The position numbers were made by a program, and so were the translations under genes. A stretch of 33,211 nt of DNA from Balneolia bacterium (GTDB lineage Bacteria; Bacteroidota; Rhodothermia; Balneolales; Cyclonatronaceae). Within the stretch, counting starts at the first letter, position 1, and each line of letters opens with the position of its first letter. Positions 3,262 through 12,955 of this stretch are shown piece by piece. The notes under the pieces are model-generated. The model was not told the DNA's origin and made no database searches. It saw only the letters and a program-made list of their open reading frames with translations. The stretch covers positions 1-33,211 of the forward strand of contig JAIUMA010000036.1 of NCBI GenBank assembly GCA_022565795.1, written 5' to 3'.

Positions 3262-3714
3262 TCAAAAAGGAAGGTCATCGTCGATGTTATCCATATCGCT
3301 GTCGTTAAACGAGCTGGCTGATGCGGCAGCGCCGGAGCCTTTTGCAGCTGCCGGAGCGGGTGCTCCGCCGCCCATGCCATCCGGCTTGGTGTCTAGCATT
3401 ACCATATTCAGCGCCTTAATCTCGGTCGTGTAGCGCTTCTGACCGTCTTTATCTTCCCACGAGCGGGTCTGAATCGGCCCTTCGAAGTACACCTTGTTAC
3501 CTTTTTTGAGGTAGTTCTGGCAGATCTCGGCAAGCTTGCCCCATGCCACCACGCGGTGCCATTCGGTGCGCTCCTGCATTTCGCCGTTTCCGTCTTTATA
3601 GCGCTCGCTTGTGGCTACGCTAAGTGTGGCAACGGCCGTGTTGCTTTGCGTGTAACGAACCTCCGGATCTGCGCCGAGGTTACCAATCAACATTGCTTTA
3701 TTTAAACTGGACAT
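3262..3714 (-). CDS. ssb: Single-stranded DNA-binding protein
   Basis: The 150-aa protein binds ssDNA as a tetramer in replication, repair and recombination. The N-terminal OB fold spans about residues 1-108: [19 protein letters not shown], then [22 protein letters not shown] and [17 protein letters not shown] flexible G/A/P/S-rich linker follows (about 113-137). The acidic C-terminal tip ends in DDDLPF, the docking peptide for partner proteins. The length is typical of bacterial SSB. The gene has its own terminator at 3185-3214. It is divergent from the ArsR gene across a 430-bp region and sits upstream of the GldE-like gene, an arrangement known from Bacteroidota gld loci. Confidence 0.97.
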
Positions 3715-3934
3715 AATCGTTCTCCGTTTGGTAGTGTTTTGTTTGTTGTTTTGTAGTAATGACTAAAATCTTCGGAAATCCTTACACATTTTTTTTCAAT
3801 GCCCGAAAAACAAATCCAATAAGCATTTGAAAATTAATGATTTCGGAATTAAATATTTTTTTGATACCCGGAGCAGTATTCAGTTCATCATGCCAGCAAG
3901 ATACCAAAAAATGATGGGACGAGTTACTAACTTC

Positions 3935-3990
3935 TGAAGGGTTTCAGCCCCATCAGGTATAAAAACGGCAGGGCTTTTAAAAACCCTTCA
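3935..3990. repeat. Long imperfect hairpin element
   Basis: TGAAGGGTTT (3935-3944) is perfectly complementary to AAACCCTTCA (3981-3990). The inner segments AGCCC (3946-3950) and GGGCT (3971-3975) extend the stem around a loop of about 20 nt. The right arm is itself the start of the direct repeat at 3980-4039. It looks like an interspersed Bacteroidota-type repeat rather than a terminator, because no U-tract follows on either side. Confidence 0.6.
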
Positions 3991-4039
3991 CAAGTTCCCG
4001 ATGCATTACAAAACCCTTCGCAGGTACGCGAAATGCATT
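3980..4039. repeat. Imperfect tandem direct repeat, two ~29-bp units
   Basis: Unit 1 (3980-4007) and unit 2 (4010-4039) both begin AAAACCCTTC and both end ATGCATT. The middle CACAAGTTCCCG differs from GCAGGTACGCGAA at several positions. The first unit overlaps the right arm of the hairpin at 3935-3990. Whether this element is dispersed elsewhere in the genome cannot be told from this window. Confidence 0.6.
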
Positions 4040-4080
4040 TTACCAAACTTTCCTCCTTAGTTATACAGTTGATGATTTTG

Positions 4081-5098: not shown

Positions 5099-7711
5099 AT
5101 GAAATCATTAGTAATTGTTGAGTCGCCTACAAAGGCAAAAACCATCAAGAAGTATCTTCCCAAGGGATATGTGGTGGATTCATCCAATGGCCACATCAGA
5201 GACCTTCCCGCATCGGCCAAGGAAATTCCGGCCAAACTCAAAAAAGAGAAGTGGGCCTCACTGGGGATCAATACCGACGATGGCTACGAACCGCTTTACG
5301 TGATTTCTACCCCTAAAAAGAAAGTTGTTAAGCGCCTGAAGGATCTCATTAAAGAGGCCGACGAGCTCATACTCGCAACTGACGAGGACCGGGAAGGTGA
5401 AGGCATCTCCTGGCATCTCAAAGAAGTGCTTAAGCCAAAAATCCCGGTGAAACGCATGGTTTTCCATGAAATCACCAAAGAGGCCATTCAAAGCGCGCTT
5501 GGGGATTTCCGCGATATCGACATGAATCTTGTGGATGCCCAGGAAACCCGGCGCGTAATCGACCGCCTTGCAGGCTACACCATTTCACCGCTTCTCTGGA
5601 AAAAAATCGCGCCGGGCCTTTCTGCCGGACGCGTGCAATCGGTTGCGGTTAAGCTGATCGTTGATCGCGAGCGGGAGCGTATGAGATTCCGCAGCGGTAC
5701 CTACTGCGACCTGAAAGCCACCCTTGCCCCGGAAGGCAGGAAAACGACGTTCGAAGCCGATATGTCGGCCCTGAACGGCAAGCGACTGGCCAGCGGCAAG
5801 GACTTCGACGAGCAGACAGGAAAGTTAAAAAAGCCCGATGCCGTTGAGCTACTGAATCTCGACGCAGCTGAGTCTCTTAAGGACTTGCTTACCGAAAGCG
5901 CCAAATGGAGCGTGCAAAGCATCGAGAAGAAGCAGCAGAAGCGCTCGCCCGCGCCTCCGTTTACCACGTCTACGCTTCAGCAGGAAGCCAACCGCAAGTT
6001 CGGTTTCTCAGCCGGTGACACCATGCGCGTTGCCCAGCGTCTGTACGAAGAAGGTTACATCACCTATATGCGTACAGATTCGACCTTCTTGTCGAATCAG
6101 GCGATTTCAGCCGCGCGTAACGGCGTGGAAGAGCTCTACGGAACAGAGTACCTGAGTGAAAAAGAGCGCCGCTATGCCACCAAGTCGAAATCGGCTCAGG
6201 AAGCACATGAGGCCATTCGTCCGGCGGGATCACAGTTTAAAACGCCTAAAGACACGCCGCTTTCGGGCCGCGAGATGAAGCTGTATGATCTGATTTGGAA
6301 GCGCACGGTTGCCACCCAAATGGCTGAAGCACAAATCGAATTCACCAATCTGGTGATTCAGGCCAACGTGGCCCACTCCGATGTAAAGGGTGAAGAAGCC
6401 CTGATCTCCAAACTTGGCAAAGGTAAAGACCTGCAGGCCACGTTCAAGGCATCAGGGAAGAAGATTCTGTTCCCGGGCTACTTCCGCGCCTACGTGGAAG
6501 GAAGCGATGATCCCGAAGCGCAGTTAGAAGATCAGGATAAGCCGCTGCCGAAGATGAGTGAAAACGACGCGCTCGACTGCAGCAAGCTGGATGCCCTCAC
6601 CCACGAAACCAAGCCTCCAGCCCGCTTCACGGAAGCTACGCTCATCAAGTTTCTGGAAAAGGAAGGCGTTGGTCGCCCCAGTACGTACGCCTCTATTATC
6701 GGCACTATTCAGGACCGAAAATATGCCCAGAAAGACGGATCTGCGCTTGTCCCTACATTCACCGCTTTTGCCGTAACCGAGCTTCTTGAGACTCATTTCC
6801 CAGACGTAGTGGATACCCACTTCACCTCGGAAATGGAAAATCAGCTTGATGAAATTGCCAATGGGAACCACGACCGCCTCTCTTACATCAAATCTTATTT
6901 TGAGGGCGAAAAAGGTCTCAAGGAAAACGTCGATAAGCAGGAGTCGCAGATTGAGCCGGCCAAAGCGCGCCGAATCAACCTGCCGCTCGAAGGCTTGAAG
7001 GATATCGAGCTGTTTGTTGGCCGTTTTGGTCCTTACGTTCAAATGAAAAAGGATGATGAAACCATCTCTGCCTCCATTCCGGCCGATATGGATCCGTCTG
7101 ACCTCACCGCAGAAAAAATCCGTGACCTGATTGAAAAATCTGAAGAAGGTCCGGAAACGCTCGGAAAACACCCCGACACGGGAGAGGATATCTTCCTGCT
7201 TACCGGCCGCTACGGTCCGTACGTGCAGCTTGGTGAAGTTACCGAAGAGAATAAAAAGCCCAAGCGCGGATCCCTGCTTAAGGGTATGAAACCAGAAGAT
7301 GTTGATCTGGAAACCGCGCTCAAGCTTCTATCCCTGCCCCGCACGCTGGGTGAACACCCGGAAACAGGCAAAGAGGTAAAAGCAGGCGTCGGCCGCTATG
7401 GTCCATTCATTCTGCACGACGGCAAGTTTAAGTCGCTCGGAAAAGACGATAACGTCCTTGAAGTTGGCCTCGAGCGTGCACTGGAAGTACTCAAGCAGGA
7501 AAAAGGAGCCCGGGGCGGATCACGCGGGTCTTCTGTTCTTAAAGAGCTTGGCAAGCATCCGGAAAGCGGCGATGCCATCAACGTGCTAACCGGTCGCTAC
7601 GGACCATATATCAAATACGGAAAGAAGAATATCAGCCTGCCCAAAGATGCCGAGGTGGAGTCTTTCGACATGGCACAGGCCGTAGAGCTGATTAACAAAA
7701 AGATGAAGTAA
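5099..7711 (+). CDS. topA: DNA topoisomerase I (type IA)
   Basis: The 870-aa enzyme relaxes negative supercoils by single-strand passage. The Toprim domain is at the N-terminus: VIVESPTKAKTIKKYL with Glu8, then the acidic motif ATDEDREGEGISWH with Asp95 and Asp97. The usual sequence is DxDREGEAI, so Gly replaces Ala. The catalytic Tyr323 lies in GYITYMRTDS. The strand-passage core continues with GVGRPSTYASIIGTIQDRKY. The C-terminus (from about 635) has four GR(F/Y)GP(Y/F) repeats of the Toprim-associated type and no Cys4 zinc fingers; only two Cys occur in the whole protein. It starts 48 bp after the peroxiredoxin gene, with an A/T-rich leader and no Shine-Dalgarno sequence. Confidence 0.97.
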   Translation: MKSLVIVESPTKAKTIKKYLPKGYVVDSSNGHIRDLPASAKEIPAKLKKEKWASLGINTDDGYEPLYVISTPKKKVVKRLKDLIKEADELILATDEDREGEGISWHLKEVLKPKIPVKRMVFHEITKEAIQSALGDFRDIDMNLVDAQETRRVIDRLAGYTISPLLWKKIAPGLSAGRVQSVAVKLIVDRERERMRFRSGTYCDLKATLAPEGRKTTFEADMSALNGKRLASGKDFDEQTGKLKKPDAVELLNLDAAESLKDLLTESAKWSVQSIEKKQQKRSPAPPFTTSTLQQEANRKFGFSAGDTMRVAQRLYEEGYITYMRTDSTFLSNQAISAARNGVEELYGTEYLSEKERRYATKSKSAQEAHEAIRPAGSQFKTPKDTPLSGREMKLYDLIWKRTVATQMAEAQIEFTNLVIQANVAHSDVKGEEALISKLGKGKDLQATFKASGKKILFPGYFRAYVEGSDDPEAQLEDQDKPLPKMSENDALDCSKLDALTHETKPPARFTEATLIKFLEKEGVGRPSTYASIIGTIQDRKYAQKDGSALVPTFTAFAVTELLETHFPDVVDTHFTSEMENQLDEIANGNHDRLSYIKSYFEGEKGLKENVDKQESQIEPAKARRINLPLEGLKDIELFVGRFGPYVQMKKDDETISASIPADMDPSDLTAEKIRDLIEKSEEGPETLGKHPDTGEDIFLLTGRYGPYVQLGEVTEENKKPKRGSLLKGMKPEDVDLETALKLLSLPRTLGEHPETGKEVKAGVGRYGPFILHDGKFKSLGKDDNVLEVGLERALEVLKQEKGARGGSRGSSVLKELGKHPESGDAINVLTGRYGPYIKYGKKNISLPKDAEVESFDMAQAVELINKKMK

Positions 7712-7805: not shown

Positions 7806-8321
7806 ATGAAATCTGAACAAAACTGCTTTCAGTATCCTCCGAACATTCGCACGCTCGATCTGGCGAGCCTGGTTTCCGTATACCGCTCCCGAGGCGAGCC
7901 CTACACGGTCCCGGCCACAGAGGTTGTGGCATGCTGCGTAACCCGTCGCCTGCTGAAGCACTCCAAGCGCTGGTTCGGATTGCATTATTCACAAAAAGCA
8001 TGGGATGCCCTGCTCACCACAGGCTCTGAAGGCTACCCGCTAACGGAAGTAGAGTTTAACGTGATGGGACTGGTGAAGGCACCGCCTCAGCCGAGAATCA
8101 GCCGGGAGTTTATTGAACAAAACTGCGGAATTGTTTCCCAGCTCGGGTTCTTGATTTTCAACGATTTGCGGCAGTTTGGCTTTATTGATGAGCCAGAAGA
8201 GCATATCTTTGAGCTGTCGCAGCGGGGCGAAATCGCCCTGGACGGCCTGAGCCGCCGCCTGTACGACACCGGCTTCAAGCCGGATTTGCTATGGATCCAC
8301 AACAACAAACTGAGCAGCTAA
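7806..8321 (+). CDS. Hypothetical protein, 171 aa
   Basis: I do not recognise a family. The product is 171 aa, soluble-looking, with no signal peptide or membrane segment. Notable parts are the Cys pair in VVACCVTRRLLKHSKRWFG (about 40-58) and a C-terminal half of alternating acidic and hydrophobic residues (FNDLRQFGFIDEPEEHIFELSQRGEIALDGLSRRLYDTGF). That part could form a helical or winged-helix-like domain (inference only). Codon use resembles the neighbours. It lies 94 bp after topA and 89 bp before the membrane protein gene, all on the plus strand, so the three could be co-transcribed. It may be a lineage-restricted protein. Confidence 0.7.
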   Translation: MKSEQNCFQYPPNIRTLDLASLVSVYRSRGEPYTVPATEVVACCVTRRLLKHSKRWFGLHYSQKAWDALLTTGSEGYPLTEVEFNVMGLVKAPPQPRISREFIEQNCGIVSQLGFLIFNDLRQFGFIDEPEEHIFELSQRGEIALDGLSRRLYDTGFKPDLLWIHNNKLSS

Positions 8322-8410: not shown

Positions 8411-9004
8411 ATGCAGGACAAGCTCCTCAACTATCTTAAAACCTGGTGGTGTACCGTCATCATTCTGCCGTTTGTGCTGTTTTCGGTTCATCAGGTTTAC
8501 CTGTCGCTGGGTACGCACATTTTGTGGGTTAACAACTATTCGTACGTGTTTCCCTATAACATCATCTATTTCCTGCTTTTTCATTTCGACCTGCTGGTAC
8601 ACGAGGCGGGTCACGGCTTTTTTTCCATCACCGGCAACCGGTTTTGGACCATTCTGGGAGGCTCGTTATATCAGGTGTTTTTCCCGGCTTTGCTTCTGGG
8701 TTTCTGCTGGTACAACCGCTACCGAATCGGGATTCAGCTTTCGCTGGTATATATGGGATTCAGCTGGATGTCGGTTGCCATTTATGCCGGCGACGCAGCG
8801 GGCAGACAGCTACCACTCATAGGTAATCTGGGCAAAGAAGCTCACGACTGGCACAACATTTTCATGCATCTGAACATACTTGACCACTATGCGCTGATTT
8901 CCGGCATTTTTGCCGTTATTGGCGGTCTTTGCTACCTCGGAGCTATTGTTGCGCCGATTTTTCACCGGGAATATGAAAGCCACAGCATCGACCTTAAGAT
9001 GTAG
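8411..9004 (+). CDS. Small integral membrane protein with HEAGH motif, putative M50-like metalloprotease
   Basis: The 197-aa protein has about five hydrophobic segments: near 13-33, 48-64, 80-98, 108-126 and 160-182. The second runs straight into LLVHEAGHGFF, where HEAGH (64-68) matches the HExxH zinc site of gluzincin and M50-type peptidases. After it come TGNRFWTILGGSLYQ and later GKEAHDWHNIFMHLNILDH (141-159). His145, Asp146 and His148 could supply the third zinc ligand, as the NPDG or HD-type motif does in M50 families (inference). It is shorter than typical RseP/SpoIVFB and has no PDZ domain. It is the last plus-strand gene before a convergent GNAT gene 23 bp away. Substrate and activity are unknown. 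Confidence 0.75.
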   Translation: MQDKLLNYLKTWWCTVIILPFVLFSVHQVYLSLGTHILWVNNYSYVFPYNIIYFLLFHFDLLVHEAGHGFFSITGNRFWTILGGSLYQVFFPALLLGFCWYNRYRIGIQLSLVYMGFSWMSVAIYAGDAAGRQLPLIGNLGKEAHDWHNIFMHLNILDHYALISGIFAVIGGLCYLGAIVAPIFHREYESHSIDLKM

Positions 9005-11404: not shown

Positions 11405-12955
11405 ATGAGTGCAAAAATTTTATGGGCTGATGACGAAATTGAACGCCTTAAACCACATATTTTATTTCTCGAGAACAAAGGTTTTACCCTAAAACCGGTT
11501 ACCAACGGCGAAGATGCCATCACCCTTGTGGAAAAGGAGGCCTTCGACCTTATTTTTCTCGATGAGCAGATGCCGGGCATGGACGGGCTTACCACATTGG
11601 GCAAAATCAAACAGCTGAATCCTCAGATTCCCGTGGTGATGATCACCAAAAGTGAAGAAGAGATGATTATGGAAGACGCAATCGGGTTTAAGATTGCGGA
11701 TTATCTCATCAAACCAGTAAATCCGAACCAGATTCTGCTTACGATTAAGCGAATTCTGGATCAGAAGCGCCTTACCAACGAGAAGTCGGCCCAAAGCTAT
11801 CTGCAGAGTTTCCAAAGCATCAGCGCGCAGATTGACAGCCGCCCTGACTGGTCGGAGTGGATTTCTATCTACACGCAGCTTACCAGCTGGGAGCTCGAGC
11901 TCGAAAACGGCGATGAAGGATTACTCCAAATTCTGAACGACCAGCTGCAACAGGCCAATACCGAGTTCGGAAAGTTCATCGACAGCGAATATCAGTACTG
12001 GCTGGACAAAGATTTGAACGAGCGTCCGCTGCTTTCTCCGGATATCGTTAAGGAATACGTCCATCCCCATCTCGATGAAGCTGACAGCACGTTCCTGTTC
12101 ATTATTGACTGTATGCGCTATGATCAGTGGCTGGTTTTTGAAAAACTGCTGTCCGATTACTACACCATCGAAACCGATTTTTACTACTCCATTCTTCCGA
12201 CGGCCACGCCCTATTCCAGAAATTCGATTTTTGCGGGACTCTATCCGCTGGATATCGAAAAGCACTATCCACAATTCTGGAAAAACGCGGAAGGTGATGA
12301 GTCTTCCCTCAATCAGGACGAGCCGGAATTGCTTGCTGAGCAGATGAGACGTTTGGGCCATGACTTCAGCCCGAAGTATGAGAAAGTCCTTCACAAGGAT
12401 GAAGGAAAGCGGATTTCAGACCGCATCAACAACTACATGCAGTCGCCGTTTAATGCGTTTGTCTTCAACTTTGTGGATACATTGGTTCACTCGCGGTCAG
12501 ACTCGGATGTACTCAAAGAGATTGCTCCGGACGTTCCGGCATTCCGTTCGCTGGCCAGAACATGGTTTCAGCACTCCAATCTGCTTCAGATTTTCAAAGA
12601 GCTATCGAGCAAGAATGTGCGCATAGTGGTAACGACCGATCACGGCTCTGTACGCGCGCTCAGAGACACAAAAGTACTTGGAGACCGGAATACCTCAACC
12701 AGCCTTCGCTACAAATTTGGGCGCCACCTCAAGGCCGACAAAAACGCAGCCATCATCGTAGACAACCCGTCTGATTACAAGCTTCCGAAGCTGAACTCCA
12801 GCACGAACTATATTTTCGCAAAGGAAGACTACTACTTTGTCTACCCGACCAACTACCACAAGTTCCAGAATAAGTATAAAGACACGTTTCAGCACGGCGG
12901 TGCGTCTATGGAAGAGATGATTCTTCCCGTATCGGTGCTGAAGCCCAAAAAATAA
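11405..12955 (+). CDS. porX: PorX-type response regulator with PglZ domain
   Basis: The 516-aa two-domain protein joins a receiver domain (1-120) to a PglZ alkaline-phosphatase-fold domain (about 215-515). The receiver has the acidic pair Asp9/Asp10, phospho-acceptor Asp53 in [11 protein letters not shown], Thr81 and Lys103. In the PglZ part, [10 protein letters not shown] (233-242), [10 protein letters not shown] (265-274), VDTLVH (357-362), TTDHGS (410-415) and HGGASMEEM (497-505) supply the expected zinc ligands and the nucleophilic Thr. In Porphyromonas, PorX works with the histidine kinase PorY to control type IX secretion and acts on oligonucleotide signals. No kinase or T9SS structural gene lies nearby. 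It follows the ComEA gene by 35 bp. Confidence 0.93.

Follow-up and report, generated by a model that had tools for sequence, protein, structure and literature searches.

The known kinds of intramembrane proteases are few, and the site-2 proteases (S2P) are the metallo kind (PMC10202637). As the core of S2P is described there, it comprises three transmembrane segments, with the motifs HExxH and LDG on separate ones, and for mjS2P and RseP a membrane-reentrant β-loop near the cytoplasmic surface has been described (PMC4597795). HExxH is also found in DUF3267 (PF11667), putative membrane zincins which are small and multi-pass, and in VIRESCENT3 of Arabidopsis plastids, a putative membrane metalloprotease whose motif reads HEAGH and is located C-terminally and exposed to the stroma according to the account consulted (PMC9166295).

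Here we analyzed a stretch of 33,211 nucleotides from a Balneolia bacterium (contig JAIUMA010000036.1; hereafter the window), in which an open reading frame (ORF) at positions 8411 to 9004 of the plus strand, with an ATG start, encodes a protein of 197 amino acids that we regard as a putative membrane-embedded metallo-hydrolase. An earlier note on this DNA, made from the sequence alone, had drawn attention to a HEAGH motif at residues 64 to 68 and an HDWHNI motif at residues 145 to 150, both of which are present in the ORF, and had suggested an intramembrane metalloprotease resembling the S2P.

A family of small membrane proteins with conserved HExxH, YxxD, and HD motifs

The ORF is genuine and not a chance reading frame, as a search of 394 genomes of the phylum with the single sequence gave matches at E ≤ 0.01 in 95, with a few of these matches being weak. 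Its third-position GC content was 0.624, compared to 0.598 in an 870-residue topoisomerase-like ORF of the same window, which we take to be topA. A single-sequence scan of contigs yielded a sole match, locus L031 from a MAG of a Balneolia bacterium, with 82% identity to the window protein. Searches of the window protein gave nothing above the cutoff in Pfam (best match DUF3719, E = 0.11), no match above the cutoff in NCBIfam, PHROGs, and PADLOC, and noise only against the PDB sequences (best E = 0.36). When 74 family members were searched one by one, Pfam returned no coherent family, the commonest being Neurensin in 7 of 74 members (best E = 0.008), and NCBIfam returned the peptidyl-dipeptidase Dcp in 6 of 74 (best E = 0.0014). 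Dcp, which is also an HExxH enzyme, was matched by the family profile in the PDB sequences as well (E = 0.11), with the aligned region lying around HExxH. Judged by these searches, the 197-residue protein is a member of a large family without a Pfam or NCBIfam model, and our literature searches of open-licence PMC papers found no description of this family.

For an alignment, 285 rows from all loci in hand were reduced to 208 distinct sequences, none of which was excluded for shortness. Although the members reach down to 23% identity with the window protein, nine residues were invariant in all 208: H64, E65, G67, H68, G84, P92, Y125, D128, and D146. The HExxH motif (positions 8600 to 8614, plus strand) contains the putative metal ligands H64 and H68 and the putative base E65, and occurred as HEAGH in 126 members, HEGGH in 72, HETGH in 5, HEPGH in 4, and HESGH in 1. 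Homologues without HExxH were looked for, and none was present among the 208, which were gathered with motif-containing profiles by which motif-less relatives are harder to find. The HDWHN motif highlighted in the earlier note held in its first half: H145 (207/208) and D146 are followed at position 147 by an aromatic residue (W in 182, F in 22, and Y in 4 members), whereas the next residue is His in only 45 of 208 members. The conserved part, H145-D146-W147 (positions 8843 to 8851, plus strand), supplies a candidate third ligand or substrate-binding residues. This conservation in 208 members indicates that HExxH and HD are true motifs.

Beyond the two motifs of the earlier note, a third invariant one was found, Y125xxD128 (positions 8783 to 8794, plus strand), which lies at the predicted end of membrane helix 4 and contains another candidate third ligand, D128. 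G84 and P92, also absent from that note, belong to a conserved stretch from G83-G84 to P92 (positions 8657 to 8686, plus strand; G83 in 204/208) at the predicted start of membrane helix 3. Less strictly conserved are L136 (203/208) and Q88 (189/208, with Glu in 17), and at position 57, where the window protein has Phe, Asp occurs in 158 of 208 members. One member alone carries H145N (locus L223, positions 3417 to 4058, plus strand), which tips the balance slightly towards Asp128 or Asp146, rather than His145, as the putative essential ligand.

Covariation and predicted membrane topology

An AlphaFold prediction from two sequences, the window protein and its L031 relative, gave an unusable model (pLDDT 58.6, pTM 0.51), and a Foldseek search of this model against the PDB returned noise (best E = 0.89); both were discarded as uninformative. 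Helix packing was instead approached by direct-coupling analysis (DCA) of the 208 sequences over 155 columns, with an effective number of 166 sequences, and the analysis was repeated with pseudolikelihood. As controls, sets of 20 and 100 alignments were simulated site-independently along the family tree. The strongest couplings were concordant between the two methods, and about ten of them exceeded the highest control value of equal rank (among the ranks listed, at 1 to 5, 7, and 10), which was no longer the case at rank 15. With motif blocks that were chosen after the couplings had been seen (residues 57 to 72, 81 to 92, 114 to 132, and 143 to 151), 13 of the 50 top couplings connected different blocks (11 with pseudolikelihood), whereas in the 100 controls such couplings numbered 4.7 on average and 10 at most. 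The link between HExxH and HD proposed in the earlier note is thus borne out by more cross-block couplings than in any of the 100 controls.

A blind count of antiparallel bands among the top 45 couplings was not above the controls (5 versus 4 to 7 in 20 controls). Named helices were therefore tested in its place. This test was not fully blind, since the helices were taken from hydropathy and their boundaries chosen after the couplings had been seen, and it ran without a positive control on a family of known structure. In this test, the best antiparallel bands for TM4/TM5 (21.4 versus 9.5 ± 2.1), TM3/TM4 (20.0 versus 8.0 ± 2.2), and TM1/TM5 (16.4 versus 7.8 ± 2.0) were each above 100 of 100 controls, with the parallel band for TM3/TM4 likewise exceeding all 100. 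The total coupling of the HExxH helix was above all 100 controls with TM4 and above 96 of 100 with TM3, whereas TM3/TM5 and HExxH-helix/TM5 couplings were below the controls. As the couplings between the HExxH helix and TM4 fell into both antiparallel and parallel registers, covariation is compatible with more than one register and depth of this helix.

Assuming an antiparallel arrangement of TM5 with both TM1 and TM4, and of TM3 with TM4, the end of TM1 and the start of TM3 lie on the same side of the membrane, and the HExxH segment between them must run without net crossing. Read in this way, the covariation points to four helices that span the membrane and to an HExxH segment that begins and ends on the same side. 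This bears on the earlier proposal that HExxH is located at the end of a transmembrane segment: the motif is there, but its segment is only moderately hydrophobic, and both the covariation and the charge bias described below suggest no net crossing, so that this placement is uncertain.

Lys and Arg reached a density of 0.249 when the two termini and the 101-107 loop were taken together, compared to 0.087 in the remaining loops, and this excess on the side of the N-terminus was seen in 204 of the 208 members. According to the positive-inside rule, segments rich in Lys and Arg are taken as cytoplasmic. On this basis both termini would be cytoplasmic, and HExxH, YxxD, and HD would face the periplasm. 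A location of the motifs on opposite membrane faces, which the earlier note had named as evidence against its proposal, was not what we found, as the charge bias in these 204 members places them on one side.

Proposed function and competing interpretations

We consider it reasonably probable that the proteins form an undescribed Bacteroidota family of small membrane-embedded, metal-dependent hydrolases, with zinc as the probable metal and proteolysis as the most likely activity. The alignment shows the conservation, the covariation, and the charge bias, from which we infer that a metal is bound, that the reaction is hydrolytic, how the protein is oriented, and which residues may act as third ligand. 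In the proposed mechanism, the N- and C-termini would be located in the cytoplasm and four helices would span the membrane (approximately residues 12 to 30, 84 to 101, 107 to 129, and 160 to 184), while the HExxH helix, placed between the first two of these, would dip into the membrane from the periplasm. On the model of other HExxH enzymes, the metal would be bound by His64 and His68, and a water molecule activated by Glu65 would cleave the substrate. The metal site would be completed by Asp128 or by His145/Asp146.

The described proteins to which this family comes nearest are the M50 site-2 proteases (RseP, SpoIVFB, and mjS2P; PF02163 and PF13398), and a divergent S2P, in which one membrane helix would carry HExxH and Asp128 would stand in for the aspartate of LDG, would explain the similar order of elements, namely a membrane HExxH, then GG, and, on a helix further along, a conserved Asp. 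In profile comparisons with sets from the same phylum, whose names were assigned by length and the presence of LDGG, the HExxH regions aligned with probabilities of 52% for M50B-like and 56% for RseP-like proteins. Both values are below confidence, and the RseP-like alignment extends over just 19 columns at the motif; PF13398, an M50B-like model, was touched by 2 of the 74 members searched in Pfam, with a best E value of 0.1. Several features set the family apart from S2P. LDG was present at residues 127 to 129 in none of the 208 members and anywhere in the sequence in 3, so that the invariant D128 sits without LDG; a PDZ domain is lacking; and YxxD and HD are additional invariant motifs, the latter without a counterpart among the S2P features compared here. 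Covariation favours an HExxH segment without net membrane crossing and the predicted site is periplasmic, on the opposite side to that of S2P, whereas HExxH and LDG of S2P occupy separate transmembrane segments in the published description (PMC10202637). RseP-like and M50B-like proteins are also encoded at other loci in genomes of the same order. We regard a divergent S2P as quite unlikely. What stands of the likeness drawn in the earlier note is the HExxH motif; membership in the S2P is not supported by an LDG motif or a significant profile match, although the two families may work in a similar manner.

Other HExxH proteins were also compared. DUF3267 proteins share the small size, the multiple membrane passes, and HExxH, but the hhalign comparison reached 34% over 27 columns around the motif only. 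DUF3267 was absent from the Pfam matches of the window protein and, for the 74 members, from the 25 of 31 families listed, and genome G014 carries both a DUF3267 protein and a member of the present family at separate loci. The likeness to VIRESCENT3, a plant plastid protein, is one of motif letters, its HEAGH being identical to that of the window protein.

A membrane enzyme other than a protease, either a hydrolase of lipids or isoprenoids or a non-hydrolytic enzyme with HExxH and HD as ligands, would also fit a polar site embedded in the membrane for which partner and substrate evidence is lacking. In one family of the window's order (f2), a family 2 glycosyltransferase gene is located directly upstream, in 27 of the 85 loci analyzed, which is consistent with such envelope or lipid chemistry, but the association is restricted to a single lineage, and in a different one that place is taken by an asparaginase gene. 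In zinc peptidases, the Glu of HExxH classically serves as the base, and its invariance also speaks against this interpretation, which we consider unlikely. That the protein is not an enzyme at all but a structural or metal-binding membrane protein, e.g., a metal sensor or carrier, appears highly improbable: His, Asp, and Tyr can make a transport or sensing site, but an HExxH motif with invariant Glu, as found in 208 of 208 members, is uncommon where a site serves for binding only.

If the preferred assignment as a metal-dependent hydrolase is correct, the HExxH/YxxD/HD family would represent a minimal system for the study of metal catalysis in the membrane and a yet unassigned step of Bacteroidota envelope biology. 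A more far-reaching version, which we put forward tentatively and hold to be rather doubtful, is that of a second, independent architecture of intramembrane metalloproteases, widespread in Bacteroidota, in which a HExxH helix re-entrant from the periplasm would combine with the terminal Asp of helix 4 and the subsequent HD motif to cut substrates at the inner membrane's outer leaflet, opposite to the side used by S2P.

Distribution and gene neighbours

Of the 127 genomes searched in the window's order, 55 had relatives detected by the family profile, as did 165 of 391 in the class of G062, which is another class of the phylum, and 76 of 194 in the class of G030, the genome samples for these counts overlapping. 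The latter two classes thus have the family in about 40% of their sampled genomes. In lineages near the window the distribution is patchy: within the window's own taxonomic family 3 of 11 genomes carry the gene, all of them from one genus, and three further genomes of that genus are without it. A mobile origin of the gene was considered and is unsupported, as the window protein had no match in plasmids and phages, two other family members had none in plasmids, and viral contigs gave no match either. Genome G215 harbors a tandem pair of copies (locus L068, positions 6403 to 6978 and 6971 to 7534), the only locus with two distinct members, and in genome G100 (locus L020) the copy contains an internal TAG, with the open frame starting only past this stop, possibly a decaying gene in one species.

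Upstream of the gene lies an ORF for a 171-residue protein (positions 7806 to 8321, plus strand) without a match in Pfam, NCBIfam, PHROGs, or PADLOC, which the earlier note had suggested as a partner. This idea was not upheld. The 171-residue protein is an unnamed, near-universal protein of the order, being present in 112 of 116 genomes. Among 52 other genomes with both genes, as tallied by eye (the 55 genomes with the membrane protein minus two outside the search for the 171-residue protein and one without a match), the genes were adjacent in 1 (G394), more than 1 Mb apart on the same contig in 3, and on different contigs in 48. Further adjacent cases are the window itself and L031.

A conserved operon partner was ruled out, as the neighbours vary with lineage. 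In the 85 loci mentioned above, which are the 92 given minus 7 whose member the profile failed to recognise, the family 2 glycosyltransferase occurred within 8 genes upstream in 34, and an asparaginase gene was located directly upstream in 17; both identities are based on Pfam matches of one representative each. In a larger set of 174 loci (191 given), in which a few places were counted twice, each of the two was directly upstream in 27. No functional partner follows from these associations because they belong to different lineages, and the lineage specificity of the neighbours argues for a stand-alone enzyme rather than a component of a fixed system.

In most of the loci having the asparaginase association, which include L066 and L051 and stem from one family of the phylum, the L-asparaginase gene is located no more than about 10 bases upstream of the membrane protein gene. 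Farther downstream in the window, positions 11405 to 12955 (plus strand) encode a response regulator fused to a PglZ domain according to Pfam, a product similar to PorX, which belongs to the type IX secretion system.
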